A stretch of DNA of 38,295 bases from an uncultured Burkholderiales bacterium (GTDB lineage Bacteria; Pseudomonadota; Gammaproteobacteria; Burkholderiales; Burkholderiaceae_C): the NCBI GenBank assembly GCA_903933115.1, contig CAIZIT010000081.1, positions 1 through 38,295 on the forward strand, written 5' to 3'. This document shows, in pieces, positions 8,661-38,295 of the stretch (the first letter of the stretch is position 1; every line of letters starts with the position of its first letter). A model generated the notes under the pieces. It was not told the DNA's origin. It was given only the letters and a program-made list of their open reading frames with translations, and searched no databases. The position numbers and the translations under genes are program-made.

Positions 8661-9113
8661 ATGGCAACTGCAAAAAAAGCTCCGGCAAAAAAAGCTGCTA
8701 AAAAAGCGGCACCCGCCAAGAAAGCACCCGCAAAAAAAGTAGTCGCTAAAAAAGCGGCACCTGCTAAAAAAGCAGCTCCAGCGAAAAAAGTAGTCGCTAA
8801 AAAAGCTCCTGCTAAAAAAGTAGTGGCTAAAAAAGCACCCGCGAAAAAAGCTCCTGCTAAAAAGCGCACCCCCAACGCAGCATTCATGAAGCCTTTGACA
8901 CCCAGCGCCGCATTGGCAGCTGTCATTGGTAGCACACCCAGCCCACGTACAGAAGTCGTGAGCAAATTGTGGACATACATCAAAAAGCACAACTTGCAAG
9001 ACAAGGTCAACAAGCGCAACATCAACGCTGATGACAAGCTCAAAGCCGTATTCGGTAAAGCTCAAGTCACCATGTTTGAATTGGCTGGCTTGATCGGCAA
9101 ACACTTGTCATAA
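8661..9113 (+). CDS. Histone H1-like protein with SWIB domain
   Basis: A 150-residue protein in two parts. Residues 1-75 are almost only lysine, alanine, proline and valine in AKKAP and AKKVV repeats, like the tail of eukaryotic histone H1 and a strong nonspecific DNA binder. Residues about 76-150 form a SWIB/MDM2-type domain (KPLTPSAALAAVIG, KLWTYIKKHNLQ, FELAGLIGKHLS). The frame is open from 8475, but agaagga lies 8 nt before the ATG at 8661, which gives the natural start. Related proteins occur in Burkholderiales and Chlamydia. A nucleoid role is inferred. The gene stands alone with its own terminator. Confidence 0.9.
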   Translation: MATAKKAPAKKAAKKAAPAKKAPAKKVVAKKAAPAKKAAPAKKVVAKKAPAKKVVAKKAPAKKAPAKKRTPNAAFMKPLTPSAALAAVIGSTPSPRTEVVSKLWTYIKKHNLQDKVNKRNINADDKLKAVFGKAQVTMFELAGLIGKHLS

Positions 9114-33827: not shown

Positions 33828-34724
33828 CTATCTCCATTTCTTGGCTTCATCTGTCAAATGTGTTTTAAAGATCGTTGCGATAGGTGAGAGTTTTTTGCCA
33901 CGAGGGCTCACGATGTGCCAACTTGAATCAATGGGGAAACCTTTGCATTTCAAAACCGCAACATGATCTAGATCTGAATTCTCCCCCAAAGAGTATTGAG
34001 AAAGCACTGCAAGACCTAATTCTCCAATAACAGCCTGTTTGATGGCTTCATTGCTGCCCAATTCCAATCTGACATCGGGCTTGAACTTCAGTTTTCTAAA
34101 GTGAGCGTCAGTGGCCATTCTGGTGCCGGACCCTTTTTCTCGAAAGATGAACTTTTCATTTTTTAGCATTGAAATATCAAGATTCTTTTTCTTGGCGTAA
34201 GCGTGATTGGATGAGGAAATCAACAACAACGGATTTGGCATCAACACTTCATTATCGATCTCTAAATGAAGAGGGGGTTGAGACATGATGTACAAATCGT
34301 CAAGATTTTCCTCAAGTCGCTGAACAACGCCATCACGGTTCAGAACCTCCAATGAAATTTCTATTTGGGGAAATTTTGCACAAAAGCTTCCTAATATTCT
34401 AGGGATGAAATATTTTGCAGTGCTCACGACTGCAACCCTCAGTTTTCCGCGTCTCAACCCTTTGATGCCATCCACCTCCTGCTCAAAAGACTCCCACTGA
34501 TCGGAAATTGCTCTTGCGGCTTTAGCAAGCTCATGACCCATTGGAGTCAAGTGAACTTTTCTAGCAACAACTTCATATAGCGGTACCCCAATGCTTTGCG
34601 TTATCTCTTTCAATCCTATAGAAGCAGTCGGTTGGGTAACATGAGTCTTTCTTGCCGCCGCACTTACACTCCCAGTCTCAGCTAGAGCCAGGAACAAACG
34701 CAGCTGCCTAAAAGTAATATTCAT
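33828..34724 (-). CDS. LysR-family regulator (CbbR/CmpR-like)
   Basis: A 298-residue LTTR. The winged helix-turn-helix (1-60) includes FLALAETGSVSAAARKTHVT, and the effector domain (about 90-295) includes FREKGSGTRMA and IGELGLAVLSQYSL. It resembles CbbR/CmpR, which regulate carbon-fixation and bicarbonate-uptake genes. Its divergent position to an SbtA-like transporter supports that assignment. The T-N11-A box at 34741-34753, 16 bp upstream of its start, is the expected binding site. Confidence 0.9.
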   Translation of the reverse strand: MNITFRQLRLFLALAETGSVSAAARKTHVTQPTASIGLKEITQSIGVPLYEVVARKVHLTPMGHELAKAARAISDQWESFEQEVDGIKGLRRGKLRVAVVSTAKYFIPRILGSFCAKFPQIEISLEVLNRDGVVQRLEENLDDLYIMSQPPLHLEIDNEVLMPNPLLLISSSNHAYAKKKNLDISMLKNEKFIFREKGSGTRMATDAHFRKLKFKPDVRLELGSNEAIKQAVIGELGLAVLSQYSLGENSDLDHVAVLKCKGFPIDSSWHIVSPRGKKLSPIATIFKTHLTDEAKKWR

Positions 34725-34740
34725 TGATTTATACCTATAT

Positions 34741-34753
34741 TAAGTGATACTTA
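34741..34753. promoter_or_regulatory. LysR-type T-N11-A box
   Basis: taagt-gat-actta is a perfect 5-bp inverted repeat of the LTTR T-N11-A kind, in the 85 bp between the divergent LysR gene and the transporter start at 34810. Its location supports the 34810 start, since the longer frame (ATG 34744) would run through it. Confidence 0.65.
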
Positions 34754-34809
34754 TTTTAATTTTACTAAATACACGGATTTCCCTAGAATATTTTCAAGAG
34801 GAAATAGAC

Positions 34810-35769
34810 ATGAACAACTTACTGGACCCATCCATCCTATTTTTTATTTTTGGTATCTTTGCTGGAATCGTCAAATCTAATCTAGAAATTCCTCAGCCCA
34901 TCTCCCGCTTTCTTTCTCTTTACCTCCTCATGGCTTTGGGATTAAAAGGAGGATTTGCTCTTAATCAGTCTGGCTTTACCTCTGAAGTCGCTGTTGGACT
35001 TGGGCTTGCAATTGGTCTAGCCATTGCAATTCCACTACTTGGCTATAACTTACTCAAGTACAAATTAGACAAGCTCGATGCAGCGGCGGTTGCCGCCACC
35101 TATGGCTCCATTAGCGCGGTGACGTTTATTACCACCACACAGGTTTTGGATCAAAGCGGTATCGCTTACGGCGGCCATATGGCAGCGGCGATGGCGATGA
35201 TGGAGTCACCTGCCATCATCATTGCAATTGTGCTAACCAATCGCATCAGGCAAGAATCACAATGTGCTAATGCACCTCAAGCATCATTTGGAAAAATACT
35301 GCATGAATCCTTTACAGATGGAGGACAACTACTTTTATTGGGATCATTGCTCATAGGCTTGGTATCGGGTGAATCAGGTCACAAAGTCATGGCACCATTT
35401 TCCATTGATTTATTCAAAGGATTGTTGGCTTTCTTTTTGTTGGATATGGGCTTGGTTGCAGCAAGAAGTATTGCTGAAATTAGAGGAAAACCACCCATCG
35501 CGCTGGCTTACGCAATAATCGCTCCACCTACTCACGCGCTGATCGCTCTTGCATTGTGTCATTTATTCCATGTAGCTCTTGGCGACACGATTCTCTTAAT
35601 GATTCTGAGTGCTAGTGCATCATATATTGCTGTACCAGCTGTTCTACGCCACGCAATACCTGAGGTCCAGCCAGCACTTTATATGGGCATGTCGCTTGGC
35701 ATCACATTTCCATTGAACATTATTCTTGGTATTCCAATTTATAGCCACATAGCGAAGTACTTGTTTTAA
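34810..35769 (+). CDS. sbtA: SbtA-type sodium/bicarbonate symporter
   Basis: A 319-residue transporter with about ten hydrophobic segments in two inverted halves. KSNLEIPQPISRFLSLYLLM, AATYGSISAVTFITTTQVL and MMESPAIIIAIVL in the first half, and LLDMGLVAARS and LSASASYIAVPAVLRHAIPE in the second, are family signatures of SbtA (Na+-dependent HCO3- uptake). agagga 7 nt before ATG 34810 sets the start. The divergent CbbR-like LysR gene is the probable regulator. The usual partner gene sbtB (a P-II-like protein) is not adjacent. Confidence 0.9.
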   Translation: MNNLLDPSILFFIFGIFAGIVKSNLEIPQPISRFLSLYLLMALGLKGGFALNQSGFTSEVAVGLGLAIGLAIAIPLLGYNLLKYKLDKLDAAAVAATYGSISAVTFITTTQVLDQSGIAYGGHMAAAMAMMESPAIIIAIVLTNRIRQESQCANAPQASFGKILHESFTDGGQLLLLGSLLIGLVSGESGHKVMAPFSIDLFKGLLAFFLLDMGLVAARSIAEIRGKPPIALAYAIIAPPTHALIALALCHLFHVALGDTILLMILSASASYIAVPAVLRHAIPEVQPALYMGMSLGITFPLNIILGIPIYSHIAKYLF

Positions 35770-35781
35770 AGCATATATGCT
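35770..35781. repeat. Palindrome at the edge of the cassette region
   Basis: The perfect 12-bp palindrome agcatatatgct begins 1 bp after the sbtA stop codon, at the border between the ordinary chromosome and the tRNA-Cys/TA region. It could be an end or a weak hairpin of sbtA. Confidence 0.4.
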
Positions 35782-35820
35782 CGGGCTGTCTAAGCAAATC
35801 TAAGTGATAGCGACATTGGG

Positions 35821-35851
35821 CGGAGTCGAAGCGACCTACAAGGATTTACAA
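35821..35851 (-). pseudogene. tRNA-Cys remnant 1 (most degraded)
   Basis: On the minus strand this covers anticodon loop to T-arm of a tRNA-Cys-like sequence. It matches the remnant at 38071-38101 at 28 of 31 positions. The loop corresponding to TTGCAAA reads TTGTAAA (anticodon GTA). The acceptor and CCA end are no longer recognisable, so it cannot be functional. It lies 38 bp past the truncated AbiEii frame. Confidence 0.75.
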
Positions 35852-35889
35852 CGTATATGCGTCAAAATTTAACTATATAAATCAATAAT

Positions 35890-36537
35890 TTAAGTCGCTA
35901 TTTTTTGATCTAAGTCTGCATTGCGCAGCAACACCCACAAGTCAAAGTAATCCTTCATGCGACTGTTAGCCATACCCAACGAAACAATAGATTCAAATTT
36001 TTCCGCAATCACTGTGTACTGCGGATAGACACGCAACTCAGGTGCTGGCATGTCTTCAAGCATGACTGGGTATGTTGCCATTTCTGGTGCAGGCGTAACC
36101 GCATCACCATAGCCAACATCAACTTGGACTTTGCATTTAGCGCCGTCAATCGTGCCTACGACTGTGACTCGTGTGCCGGAGTAATTTGCGTCTTTGCGAA
36201 TTTCTTCTGCAGTAATGCTTGACGACTCAAAGCTAATTCCATATTCAACCTCAATGGCGCATAAGTCTTCAAACACATTGATCAGGTGTTGAATCTCTGC
36301 CATGCCAAAACCCAACAAGTCGATGTCTCGTGTTGGTCTTAGTGGCACGTCGTACCAAATATCAAATAGCAATGCTTCCTTGAGCAAGAAACTGTCACGA
36401 TGCTCAGACACAGCCAATCGATACTACATCCGCTCCAATGCATAGCGCGTTAACAGGAACTGTGTATTGACCTTGTCTGCTTTGGCATTGTTGTTGATAC
36501 GCGCTCGAACAGAAGCGCCAATGTTCTTGACCGTCAT
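35890..36537 (-). pseudogene. AbiEii-like toxin, broken (in-frame TAG, truncated C-terminus)
   Basis: AbiEii is a nucleotidyltransferase toxin of the type IV AbiE system. Starting at ATG 36537 (overlapping the AbiEi stop by 4 bp), the product is family-like: an N-terminal VNTQFLLTRYALERM, then a TAG at 36424-36426, then YRLAVSEHRDSFLLKEALL and the NTase motif RPTRDIDLLGFG. Family members read KGALL where this one has KEALL. The reading frame is the same on both sides of the TAG. The protein also stops at about 215 residues, where relatives continue with another ~80 after FDLW. A restart at TTG 36417 would give 175 residues. It is a decayed gene, by inference. Confidence 0.8.
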
Positions 36538-37133
36538 ACCAAGCTCTCCATATAGGGGCGCATGACGTTGGCAACTCGGCATTGCTCAGCCGCTTGCCAT
36601 AGTTCGTCCATCGTGACCTTCTTTTGCTGCCAAGCATCTCTCAGTGCTTCAAGTGCAACATCAAGACCTACCTTGCTTCTGAACTTAAAACTGTCTGCAA
36701 TTGTCTTAGCAACATCAGTCACAGGGATACGTACCACCCCATCGACTGACATAGTCGTAACTCCGTACTCCACATCACTCATACGCACAACATGCAGTGG
36801 TGGGTGTTCGATGTTTGGGGTACGCGCCTTCTAAGCAACAGCAACCCGCACTTCATGTGGAGACTGCGTTGTTAGTCCATGCAACTGCAATGCGGTAAGC
36901 AAACAAAAAACCAAGCGCGGATATTTGATTGCAATTGAGCCTAGGCCGTCTAGCTCAGTTTGTTTACGGCCTGCATTTGCGTAGACACCTCGCGCTACTT
37001 TGACCAAGGTGCCTGTCTTAAGGAACTGTTGAAGGGTTCCCCCAGTTGCGCAGACTAGCGCCAGTTCACGCGCACGAACAAAGCCCTGCTTCATTGCAAG
37101 GTCGAGGGCTGGGTGTTGACTTGTCGAGTTCAT
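36534..37133 (-). pseudogene. AbiEi-like antitoxin, broken (in-frame TAG)
   Basis: AbiEi is the winged-helix antitoxin and repressor of AbiEii. Codons 1-100 (ARELALVCATGGTL, VARGVYANAG, HGLTTQSPHEVRVA) are followed by TAG at 36831-36833. The same frame then continues with KARTPNIEHPPLHVVRMSDV through TIADSFKFRSKVGLDVALE to MRPYMESLV, the usual AbiEi end. Without the TAG it would be a normal ~199-residue protein. A single base change from a sense codon (CAG, AAG or TGG) explains it. tgtac elements upstream (37156-37174) may be its operator. Confidence 0.82.
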
Positions 37134-37235
37134 GCGTGCATTTTACGTTTTCGTCTGTACTTGTAAATATGTACCTGCATTTTCATAAAAATGGGAGAGG
37201 AGGGATTTGAATTTCAAAGTGCAAGTGTACGGACG

Positions 37236-37269
37236 AAAAAAAAAGCAACTACCCTGAGACAGTTGCTTT
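37236..37269 (-). terminator. Intrinsic terminator after tRNA-Cys remnant 2
   Basis: Stem aaagcaact (37242-37250) with agttgcttt (37261-37269), followed on minus by nine U (37236-37244). It is 8 bp past the CCA end of the remnant, the place and style of a genuine tRNA terminator. Confidence 0.85.
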
Positions 37270-37276
37270 AATTTGA

Positions 37277-37341
37277 TGGAGGCGCGACCCAGAGTCGAAA
37301 TGGGCTAAACGGATTTGAAATCCGGTGCATAACTGCTTTGC
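37277..37341 (-). pseudogene. tRNA-Cys remnant 2 (3' 65 nt)
   Basis: On minus it holds the D-arm (gcaaag...), an anticodon arm ggattTCAaatcc, the T-arm ttcgact and the end gcgcctcca with CCA. The loop TTTCAAA gives anticodon TCA instead of GCA. The 5' acceptor strand GGCGCG is missing, replaced by aacttcgaa-type sequence, so it cannot fold fully. It corresponds base for base to remnant 3, exactly 781 bp away, with about 80% identity by eye. Confidence 0.85.
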
Positions 37342-37347
37342 AAGTTC

Positions 37348-37373
37348 GTACTTTTTATTATATTTAAAAGTAC
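37348..37373. repeat. GTACTTTT/AAAAGTAC inverted repeat, copy A
   Basis: An 8-bp perfect inverted repeat with a 10-nt A/T spacer, between the hicB stop and tRNA-Cys remnant 2. The same element occurs at 38129-38154 in the next unit. Confidence 0.75.
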
Positions 37374-37402
37374 TCAGATACAAGATTCCCAAATCTATTA
37401 AG

Positions 37403-37822
37403 TCAAGCGATCTCAATATTTATTTGCTTACCTAAAACGTGAGCTGCTGCTTCAATTTGATCTAGTTTTGAAGCATGTCTCAAATCAAATAATCGATCCA
37501 CTTGGGGCATATGCCAACCTAAACGCCTAGCCAATTCCGCCTTTTTGATGCCTTGCTCAGTCATTGCTTTATAGATGCCAAGTTTTGCACATTCCAACGC
37601 AGAAGGGGTTACTGTTTTCTGCCCTTTTTTAGCCTTACTGGGTAATGGCAAAACCTTACGTTCGTCAACATAAAAGGATAATCCAGTTTCAAGTGCGTCA
37701 ATAGCGTTTAAAAGAGCCTCATCCTCATCCGCTCCAAAAGTAATGGCTTCAGGAACGTCTACAAACATTGCGATAACAGTACCGTTATCGTCTTTGGTAA
37801 GTGTTACTGGATACTCAAACAT
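37403..37822 (-). CDS. hicB: HicB-like antitoxin with HTH domain
   Basis: A 139-residue antitoxin. The N-terminal HicB fold (1-70, with YPVTLTKDDNGTVIAMFVDV and AITFGADEDEALLNAIDA) neutralises HicA. The C-terminal XRE-type helix-turn-helix (about 85-135, KKAELARRLGWHMPQVDRLF) binds DNA, so the module is autoregulated. It starts 10 bp after hicA on the same strand, the normal hicA-hicB order. The last 112 bp recur at the window's right edge. Confidence 0.93.
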   Translation of the reverse strand: MFEYPVTLTKDDNGTVIAMFVDVPEAITFGADEDEALLNAIDALETGLSFYVDERKVLPLPSKAKKGQKTVTPSALECAKLGIYKAMTEQGIKKAELARRLGWHMPQVDRLFDLRHASKLDQIEAAAHVLGKQINIEIA

Positions 37823-37832
37823 AACTGTCCTT

Positions 37833-38012
37833 TCACTTTAACCCAAGTTGACGTTTAATTGCTGCTTCGATACCTTTACCCAACTCCTTGGTGCCGTGCA
37901 TAGGCAAACTTGAGTGCCTGCCATTTAAAACAACTTTAAGATGTGAGCCTTTGCCTTGGGAGAACGTGGCTCCTTGTTGCTCAAGCCATTTTTTGAGTTG
38001 TTTTGAATTCAT
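37833..38012 (-). CDS. hicA: HicA-like mRNA interferase toxin
   Basis: A 59-residue double-stranded-RNA-binding-fold toxin that cleaves mRNA. It begins MNSKQLKKWLEQQGATF and carries the catalytic histidine in GKGSHLKVV and the typical SLPMHGTKELGKGI. The length is normal. The stop TGA is 10 bp before hicB. The upstream ~45 bp (38013-38057) must hold the promoter and abut tRNA-Cys remnant 3. Confidence 0.92.
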   Translation of the reverse strand: MNSKQLKKWLEQQGATFSQGKGSHLKVVLNGRHSSLPMHGTKELGKGIEAAIKRQLGLK

Positions 38013-38057
38013 CCATTTCAGTTTAACAGAAATGTTGTATTTTCAAAATTAGTATAT

Positions 38058-38122
38058 TGGAGGCGCGGGCCGGAGTCGAACCGACCTACACGGATTTGCA
38101 ATCCGGCGCAAAACCGCTTTGC
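38058..38122 (-). pseudogene. tRNA-Cys remnant 3 (3' 65 nt, best preserved)
   Basis: On minus: D-arm gcaaagcggttttgc, anticodon arm ccggaTTGCAAAtccgt with the true Cys anticodon GCA, T-arm gtcggttcgactccggc, and the end ccgcgcctcca with CCA. It matches tRNA-Cys throughout, but the 5' acceptor strand GGCGCGG is absent (acaatctt stands there). The sequence is therefore a 3' fragment, as left by integration or recombination at a tRNA gene. Confidence 0.88.
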
Positions 38123-38128
38123 AAGATT

Positions 38129-38154
38129 GTACTTTTTATTACATACAAAAGTAC
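38129..38154. repeat. GTACTTTT/AAAAGTAC inverted repeat, copy B
   Basis: The same arms as at 37348-37373, with the spacer changed (tattacatac). It lies between remnant 3 and the partial hicB, at the same 781-bp offset. Confidence 0.75.
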
Positions 38155-38183
38155 TCATATAAAAGTTTCGCGAATCTGATAAC

Positions 38184-38295
38184 TCAGGCGATCTCAATAT
38201 TTATTTTCTTGCCTAAAACGTGAGCTGCTGCTTCAATTTGATCTAGTTTTGAAGCATGTCTCAAATCAAATAATCGATCCACTTGGGGCATATGC
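38184..38295 (-). CDS. hicB: Second HicB-like antitoxin, C-terminal part
   Basis: The last 36 codons plus stop of another hicB, cut by the window edge. It begins HMPQVDRLFDLRH and ends GKKINIEIA. It differs from the first copy at 3 of 112 bases, giving one amino-acid change (Q to K) and two silent ones. It belongs to the next unit to the right, which presumably also has hicA. Confidence 0.9.
   Translation of the reverse strand, partial: HMPQVDRLFDLRHASKLDQIEAAAHVLGKKINIEIA

Follow-up and report, generated by a model that had tools for sequence, protein, structure and literature searches.

How does a row of small toxin–antitoxin (TA) modules, each set off from the next by the 3′ part of the same tRNA gene, come to stand at one end of a bacterial contig? 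The question is raised by contig CAIZIT010000081.1 of an uncultured Burkholderiales bacterium (GenBank assembly GCA_903933115.1, 119 contigs, 2.82 Mb), the whole of which, 38,295 bases, was analysed and is hereafter called the window. Its genome is referred to as G000, the other genomes searched also bear G-numbers, and L138–L209 are 72 regions fetched around tRNA-Cys matches. In minus-strand reading, starting at the contig end, the window holds a cut hicB gene, a tRNA-Cys remnant, hicA–hicB, a second remnant, a broken abiEi–abiEii pair, a third remnant, a permease gene and a LysR gene. It probably represents the right-hand portion of a tandem array in which small integrative units, devoid of a recombinase, have accumulated behind tRNA-Cys.

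The original prediction, made from the window alone, had described three same-strand tRNA-Cys 3′ remnants, and these are real: a tRNA-Cys core pattern with up to three mismatches matches the 2.82-Mb assembly exactly three times, always at the window joints, and the backward control gave no match, which rules out chance similarity. The remnant at 38,058–38,122 (minus strand, tRNA positions 10–74, v1-type 3′ half), 95% identical to an intact tRNA-Cys, joins the cut-off hicAB unit to the complete one. The remnant at 37,277–37,341 (minus strand, positions 10–74), with 83% identity, joins the hicAB and AbiE units and possesses a v2-type 3′ half followed by a terminator like that behind v2-type tRNA-Cys genes. 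The third, at about 35,818–35,851 (minus strand), has a class (i) left arm and forms the AbiE unit end. Two of the copies score 27.3 and 20 bits with the Rfam tRNA model, below its cut-off of 29 bits, and are therefore considered remnants. An intact tRNA-Cys and a tyrosine recombinase were to be sought to the right of the array; the contig ends there, and sequence search, Rfam and ARAGORN revealed no intact tRNA-Cys in the assembly, although both features occur in other genomes of the genus. Nor was a tRNA-Gly gene found in the assembly with Rfam (32 matches) or with ARAGORN on the 30 of these with loci, one further weak tRNA match being the tmRNA. Since neither gene was found, the assembly lacks the left part of the array.

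The intact counterpart is seen in relatives. An intact tRNA-Cys of this genus, the one query lineage, was used to search 84 genus genomes with no completeness limit, mostly draft metagenome assemblies, and matched 69 of them at E ≤ 1 and 56 at E ≤ 0.001. Two or more matches at the latter threshold were present in 22 genomes, including assembly effects in G038 and G049, where a tRNA is divided between contig ends, and perhaps in G024, and two matches on one strand within 3 kb in eight, five of which carry TA units (G000, G036, G044, G060 and G081) and three of which do not (G002, G069 and G076). In G044 the order is lon, tRNA-Gly, intact tRNA-Cys, DUF433/DUF5615, remnant, hicAB, remnant, sbtA and LysR, the names sbtA, LysR, lon and gpsA used here being our presumptive assignments from the sequence, and the right-hand neighbours sbtA and LysR are common to G044 and the window. 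G036 has an intact tRNA-Cys, DUF433/DUF5615, a remnant, MntA/HEPN, a remnant and a decayed DUF433; G060 has an intact tRNA-Cys, MntA/HEPN and a remnant; G037 has Phd/YoeB between two remnants. In G081 a Gp49/HTH pair, a remnant, hicAB, a remnant and a ParE-like toxin follow each other, and on another contig an intact tRNA-Cys precedes MntA and part of HEPN. Thus G044, G036 and G060 contain the intact tRNA-Cys, the units and the displaced 3′ copies expected of insertion into the 3′ part of a tRNA gene, and the window contains the remnants only.

Among the 14 units of less than 2 kb bounded on both sides in the genus, 11 contain a TA module, the families represented being HicAB, DUF433/DUF5615, MntA/HEPN, Phd/YoeB and AbiE, and their orders differ between genomes. 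As the hicAB units of G040 and G060 go back to one ancestral event, at most 10 of 13 are independent. The three non-TA units are from G076 (an integrase start and a further gene), G069 (gene-free, 286 bp) and G043 (doubtful); the latter two were kept in the 14 as non-TA units, the second match of G043 (77%) resembling by eye the T-arm of another tRNA. Half-bounded TA cases were seen in G052 (two contigs), G032, G014, where DUF433 lies directly behind tRNA-Cys, G051 (AbiE) and G076. In the last genome (L188, 6674–7770) a tRNA-Cys remnant is followed by a MazE-like/PIN pair and then, where the contig stops, by the final part of a tyrosine integrase. Variable cassettes at the same chromosomal position among relatives are the hallmark of an additive flexible genomic island, and they bear out the claim of repeated insertion at one site: an intact tRNA-Cys heads the arrays in relatives, and the order and content of modules between remnants vary rather than being fixed. 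Contig breaks within 250 nt of intact tRNA-Cys loci (10 of 53 downstream and five upstream, as raw counts) would fit a hypervariable site. Right after the intact tRNA-Cys comes a terminator-like sequence that varies among many genomes of the genus (regions L138–L209) and recurs behind remnants in others, as compared by eye, so that these terminators look as if brought by past insertions.

Each joint between units is a hybrid: up to the anticodon loop its sequence goes with the upstream unit, and the leader past the tRNA piece goes with the downstream unit. With units labelled from their genes only, identity between joints of the same unit was compared with that between other joints and set against 10,000 label shuffles. 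For the 50 nt preceding tRNA position 31, similarity is 0.74 with the same upstream unit versus 0.50 otherwise (12 joints), and for the 110 nt from position 31 it is 0.86 with the same downstream unit versus 0.62 otherwise (14 joints), with none of the 10,000 shuffles as good on the left or on the right side. Grouping by the unit of the opposite side gives no signal (−0.015 and −0.019, 13 joints, leaving out intact tRNAs and L158, a near-duplicate of L193). In this 13-joint test and in an earlier one with 15 joints on the left and 21 on the right, four right-hand labels (L138:3337, L155:465, L157:2216 and L154:352) were taken from the leader itself and are thus circular; the repeat with 12 and 14 joints is free of this. 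Alignment of the hicAB unit of the window with that of G044 agrees with this picture, the similarity extending from the tRNA 3′ half across hicAB to the next remnant, beyond which stands whichever unit follows. The ends of this unit are constant in five genomes, with 233–235 nt between the remnant end and hicB and 77–82 nt between the hicB stop and the core. The AbiE joint of the window has the v2-type 3′ half and terminator found directly behind the intact tRNA-Cys of G051, which, with arm classes compared by eye, suggests that the tRNA half arrives with the unit, clearly for AbiE and weakly as a general trend.

Some units are also far more alike than the genomes that carry them. Nucleotide identity is 0.934 for the hicAB unit between G000 and G044 (gpsA, 0.640), 0.971 for MntA/HEPN between G036 and G060 (gpsA, 0.754) and 0.850 for DUF433/5615 between G036 and G044 (gpsA, 0.629); the chromosomal sbtA–LysR stretch beside the array is 74% identical between the window and G044. 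A hicB gene of at least 90% identity is present in five of the 84 genomes, in all five between tRNA-Cys remnants. Close DUF5615 copies occur in three of the 84 and HEPN copies of at least 94% identity likewise in three, all adjoining tRNA-Cys remnants (G052 half-bounded). HEPN matches of any kind were seen in nine genomes, five of them at 46–55% identity (G033, G024, G005, G068 and contig 11 of G044) and outside the remnant check. Judged by these identities, some units have been transferred between genomes, and the unit-level mosaicism, the hybrid joints and the excess of unit identity over gpsA together suggest that units move singly.

The units of the window are of two kinds, compact hicAB units and one decayed island remnant. 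In the complete hicAB unit, the hicA toxin gene (37,833–38,012, minus strand, 59 aa; PF07927, 4.8e-11) adjoins a hicB-type antitoxin gene (37,403–37,822, minus strand, 139 aa), whose product matches PF15919 under the cut-off (E = 0.0012, 19.4 bits versus 27) and also has weak helix-turn-helix matches. The second hicB (38,184–38,295, minus strand), of which only the 3′ end is left before the contig end, belongs to a second hicAB unit and is recognized by the sequence repeat: the region 38,049–38,295 repeats 37,268–37,514 at 87% identity. A recent tandem duplication of hicAB is ruled out, as the two copies are 13% apart over 247 nt.

In the AbiE unit, abiEi (36,534–37,133, minus strand) is split by an in-frame stop into two open reading frames (36,831–37,133 and 36,534–36,788), one piece reaching 21.6 bits in Pfam against a cut-off of 25, and the toxin gene abiEii (35,890–36,537, minus strand; PF08843, 3.6e-32) has an in-frame stop near its start and is truncated at the joint, being about 68 C-terminal residues shorter than the G051 copy. 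It is thus not the pair of intact genes that makes up a type IV AbiE system. The unit is 90.7% identical over 1442 nt to a stretch of G051 beginning inside the intact v2 tRNA-Cys, and the similarity ends within abiEii, where the class (i) island end attaches. Because of the in-frame stops in both genes and the cut of abiEii into this island end, the AbiE unit appears to be an eroded remnant of a larger element and not a compact cassette. The original prediction, in which the remnants separate an AbiE pair, a HicAB pair and a further hicB, therefore holds for the layout and for HicA and AbiEii; the AbiE pair is broken and the further hicB runs off the contig end. A search with NCBIfam named nothing useful, the sole match being a weak one to MntA under the cut-off.

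Which enzyme could move such units? No integrase gene of their own was detected, from open reading frames and families, in the hicAB, DUF433/5615, MntA/HEPN, Phd/YoeB or window AbiE units. Integrases, called by Pfam PF00589 or by similarity to such a protein, do occur at the same tRNA-Cys in the genus. A type B integrase adjoins tRNA-Cys or a remnant in G012 (PF00589, 1.4e-9), G045 (5.6e-5, below the cut-off), G078 and, cut short where the contig ends, G042; a truncated copy is present in G076 and a partial one in G066, and a type C integrase (PF00589, 1.2e-13) is located at the far end of a 13.5-kb island in G068. A third type is probably represented by a 463-aa protein encoded directly behind tRNA-Cys in G001, G027 and G038, with integrase-domain matches that do not reach the cut-offs (best 0.0076). 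In G001 and G027 the islands measure about 34 and 48 kb and end in remnants which start at position 31 and share the class (i) left arm of the third window remnant. By eye, island arms match units only at this AbiE end (class i) and at the joint before hicAB in G081 (class ii). Because integrase-bearing islands use the same tRNA-Cys in the genus, action in trans on the units by an integrase encoded elsewhere is plausible.

It is thus quite reasonable to propose that a tRNA-Cys 3′ half, a short leader, a single TA module and a right arm ending at the anticodon stem make up a unit. Such a unit, in circular form, would insert at the anticodon loop of the resident tRNA-Cys; the incoming 3′ half would replace that of the resident gene, which would stay functional, and the old half would be pushed downstream as a remnant. 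Repeated insertion would stack the units, a tyrosine integrase encoded elsewhere would join them in trans, and the TA module may help the unit persist. Both circular units and persistence aided by the TA module are inferred here, and a trans-acting tyrosine integrase is the most likely agent moving single units.

A quite different origin, which we consider rather unlikely, is that the units are eroded leftovers of large integrase-bearing islands at tRNA-Cys that have lost everything but the TA module nearest the attachment site. The window AbiEii truncated straight into a class (i) island end would fit such erosion, as would AbiE within the G027 island of about 48 kb, some 8 kb before its end, the G076 remnant with its MazE-like/PIN pair and integrase piece, the other G076 unit with an integrase start, and the broken TA genes (both abiE genes of the window, and hicA of G044 with an in-frame stop). 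However, the ends and length of the hicAB unit are nearly constant in five genomes and at two kinds of genomic site, and the MntA/HEPN and DUF433/5615 units recur with similar ends, which independent erosion would not yield and which makes it an unlikely source of these units.

It seems still less probable that RecA-dependent recombination between short tRNA repeats, by natural transformation or unequal crossing-over, has shuffled and duplicated the units with no site-specific recombinase involved. The tRNA-Cys repeats of 34–65 nt at the window joints and the two hicAB copies in a row could serve such recombination, and a loosely placed switch point within the remnant would fit it too, but the divergence of the two copies means that the duplication is not recent, and the left-arm identity stops at the anticodon region, where the island remnants of the genus also start (position 27 or 31) and where tyrosine integrases of tRNA islands cut. 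Finally, the genes followed by a recombination joint, with one module per unit, resemble integron cassettes, as the original prediction pointed out. As an analogy of layout this stands; that the 3′ remnants actually serve an integron integrase as attC-like single-strand sites is highly improbable, given that there is no GTTRRRY/RYYYAAC core-box pair at the three window joints and that an intact tRNA heads the array in relatives (no search for an integron integrase was made).

Several observations weigh against the stacking of single tRNA-Cys units by an integrase acting in trans. The tRNA half alone (44 nt, positions 31–74) groups weakly by the downstream unit, at 0.88 versus 0.84 with 265 of 10,000 shuffles as good, because the halves are much alike anyway; the switch therefore falls within the remnant, no earlier than the anticodon loop, and neither its exact point nor the belonging of the half to the unit is fixed. 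The tRNA similarity itself begins at varying positions (10 to 40). In G037 the Phd/YoeB unit has a DUF5615-type arm at its end, which together with the AbiE deletion remnant means that deletions also shape the arrays. Between G000 and the hicAB copies of G060, G040 and G081 the identity is 0.80, a small excess over gpsA (0.73–0.75), so these copies could be old residents. Moreover, in G040 (L193, 11,874–12,989) and G060 (L158, 9008–10,118) hicAB and a damaged MntA/HEPN lie as a block with tRNA-Cys remnants between gpsA and the next gene, off any tRNA; the aligned flanks are about 1.35 kb apart there and 44–50 bases apart in G000, G081 and G036, so that units can end up as a block away from a tRNA. 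Fragmented draft genomes supply most of the evidence for the TA arrays; in these assemblies none of the TA units showed a recombinase, a circular form or excision, and the candidate integrase of G001, G027 and G038 has sub-threshold Pfam matches only. The main gap is that, by eye, no integrase with arms matching the hicAB, DUF433 or MntA units was found among the islands seen.

The association was also sought outside the genus and outside this site. Two or more tRNA-Cys matches at E ≤ 0.001 were found in 10 of 158 genomes of the family outside the genus, of at least 90% completeness, with two matches within 3 kb in three of them (G160, G213 and G226) and two remnants within 3 kb in none of the 10, the query from this genus under-detecting diverged remnants elsewhere. 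In G160 (C10, 905,660–992,279) two intact tRNA-Cys genes lie about 86 kb apart, with a remnant of positions 29–74 situated 2.6 kb from one of them. A survey of the hicAB family, in which 80 of 114 related loci were kept and six more added (some of them the same place twice), compared 86 loci with 32 tRNAs. Only four of the 86 (L058–L061), which share at least 90% identity and belong to this genus, are flanked by tRNA-Cys remnants, which rules out a general tie of the hicAB family to tRNA fragments. Five other loci lie near another tRNA, within 550 nt upstream or 300 nt downstream, the tRNA being whole at L062, L064, L069 and L118 and partial at L102; no displaced 3′ copy was found at the four loci with a whole tRNA. 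At L062 (5596–5685) and L069 (5546–5622), both outside the genus, hicAB immediately follows a tRNA-Ser or tRNA-Lys gene of the same strand. For hicB genes of about 80% identity in G002, G074 and G022 there was no tRNA match in the sequence stretch examined. Plasmid records gave 38 matches to the window stretch, and among the best 20 of the 38 these are tRNA-Cys or AbiE pieces only, none covering more than 80% of the stretch.

Tandem islands at RNA genes as such are already known. In Dehalococcoides, ssrA islands lie in tandem downstream of one RNA gene and are bounded by repeats of its 3′ end, and 15 of them have no integration module, the authors suggesting cis-mobilizable elements and accretion; in the parts of that paper covered, the site is a tmRNA gene with a 20-bp repeat, the recombinase a serine recombinase and the cargo reductive dehalogenases (PMC3146451), unlike the units here, which use tRNA-Cys, have window remnants of 34–65 nt, measure 0.7–1.5 kb and each carry a single TA module. 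For Candidatus Methylopumilus, additive islands of 330 bp upwards with tRNA-Lys 3′ repeats are described (PMC10872708), for Candidatus Actinomarinales, reported to lack identifiable toxin–antitoxin systems, cassettes with tRNA repeats (PMC7771536), and for the additive flexible genomic islands of Alteromonas variable cassettes at one position (PMC5217437). The statement in the original prediction that known islands leave a single 3′ fragment is accordingly too strong, as tandem tmRNA or tRNA 3′ repeats have been published (PMC3146451, PMC10872708 and PMC7771536, as far as the passages covered go). The arrays described here share the variable cassettes at one position with these additive islands, and with those of Methylopumilus and Actinomarinales also the tRNA site and its repeats, whereas the cargo reported in the passages covered is metabolic, resistance, envelope or unknown, with no pattern of one TA module per cassette. 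They share with cis-mobilizable elements, as the term is used in the part of the Dehalococcoides paper covered, bounds of the attachment type, no recombinase of their own and tandem stacks (PMC3146451). In the units studied, the bounds are recognized by sequence only, and neither recombinase nor transfer genes are present. What sets them apart is the repeated minimal TA format with similar ends, known cis-mobilizable elements being larger and mostly deleted conjugative elements. Integron arrays are likewise composed of one-module units with a recombination joint, TA cassettes included; here, unlike in those, the joints have no attC box pair and the entry site is a tRNA. No description of TA-per-unit arrays at a tRNA, or of this site in Limnohabitans, was found in the titles and opening abstract lines of the matches listed, most subscription papers lying outside the search. 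What is new is thus the recurring format of 0.7–0.8 kb without a recombinase and with one TA module.

As for the rest of the window, the array borders on an sbtA-like permease gene (34,744–35,769, plus strand), the first chromosomal gene past it and the same neighbour as in G044, followed by a gene for a LysR-type regulator (33,828–34,724, minus strand) in the flank common to G044. Close to the contig start, near tRNA-Pro, there is a 13-base tandem repeat of ten copies with 95% matches (66–196), and A-rich repeats of 15–66 bases in overlapping arrays at 8668–8875 perhaps code, as judged by eye, for a lysine/alanine/proline-rich protein.

The TA units of these Limnohabitans-type freshwater bacteria, stacked behind tRNA-Cys and exchanged between species, are a stripped-down relative of known tRNA-targeting genomic islands. 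More tentatively, and with somewhat less than even confidence, they may form a class of their own: minimal non-autonomous cassettes of about 0.7 kb without a recombinase, in which half a tRNA gene would serve both for attachment and as a repair patch, and which would be mobilized in trans by several unrelated tyrosine integrases aimed at the same tRNA, be stacked in an integron-like manner and also land as blocks at a non-tRNA site. Lone chromosomal TA modules often seem orphaned, with an unclear route of arrival; here the unit of movement is visible as a TA pair between pieces of one tRNA. If mobilization in trans is true, the smallest mobile element at a tRNA site would need only an attachment half-site and an addiction module, tRNA genes could be entry gates for TA arrays without an integron, and the order of the remnants would record the order of arrival.

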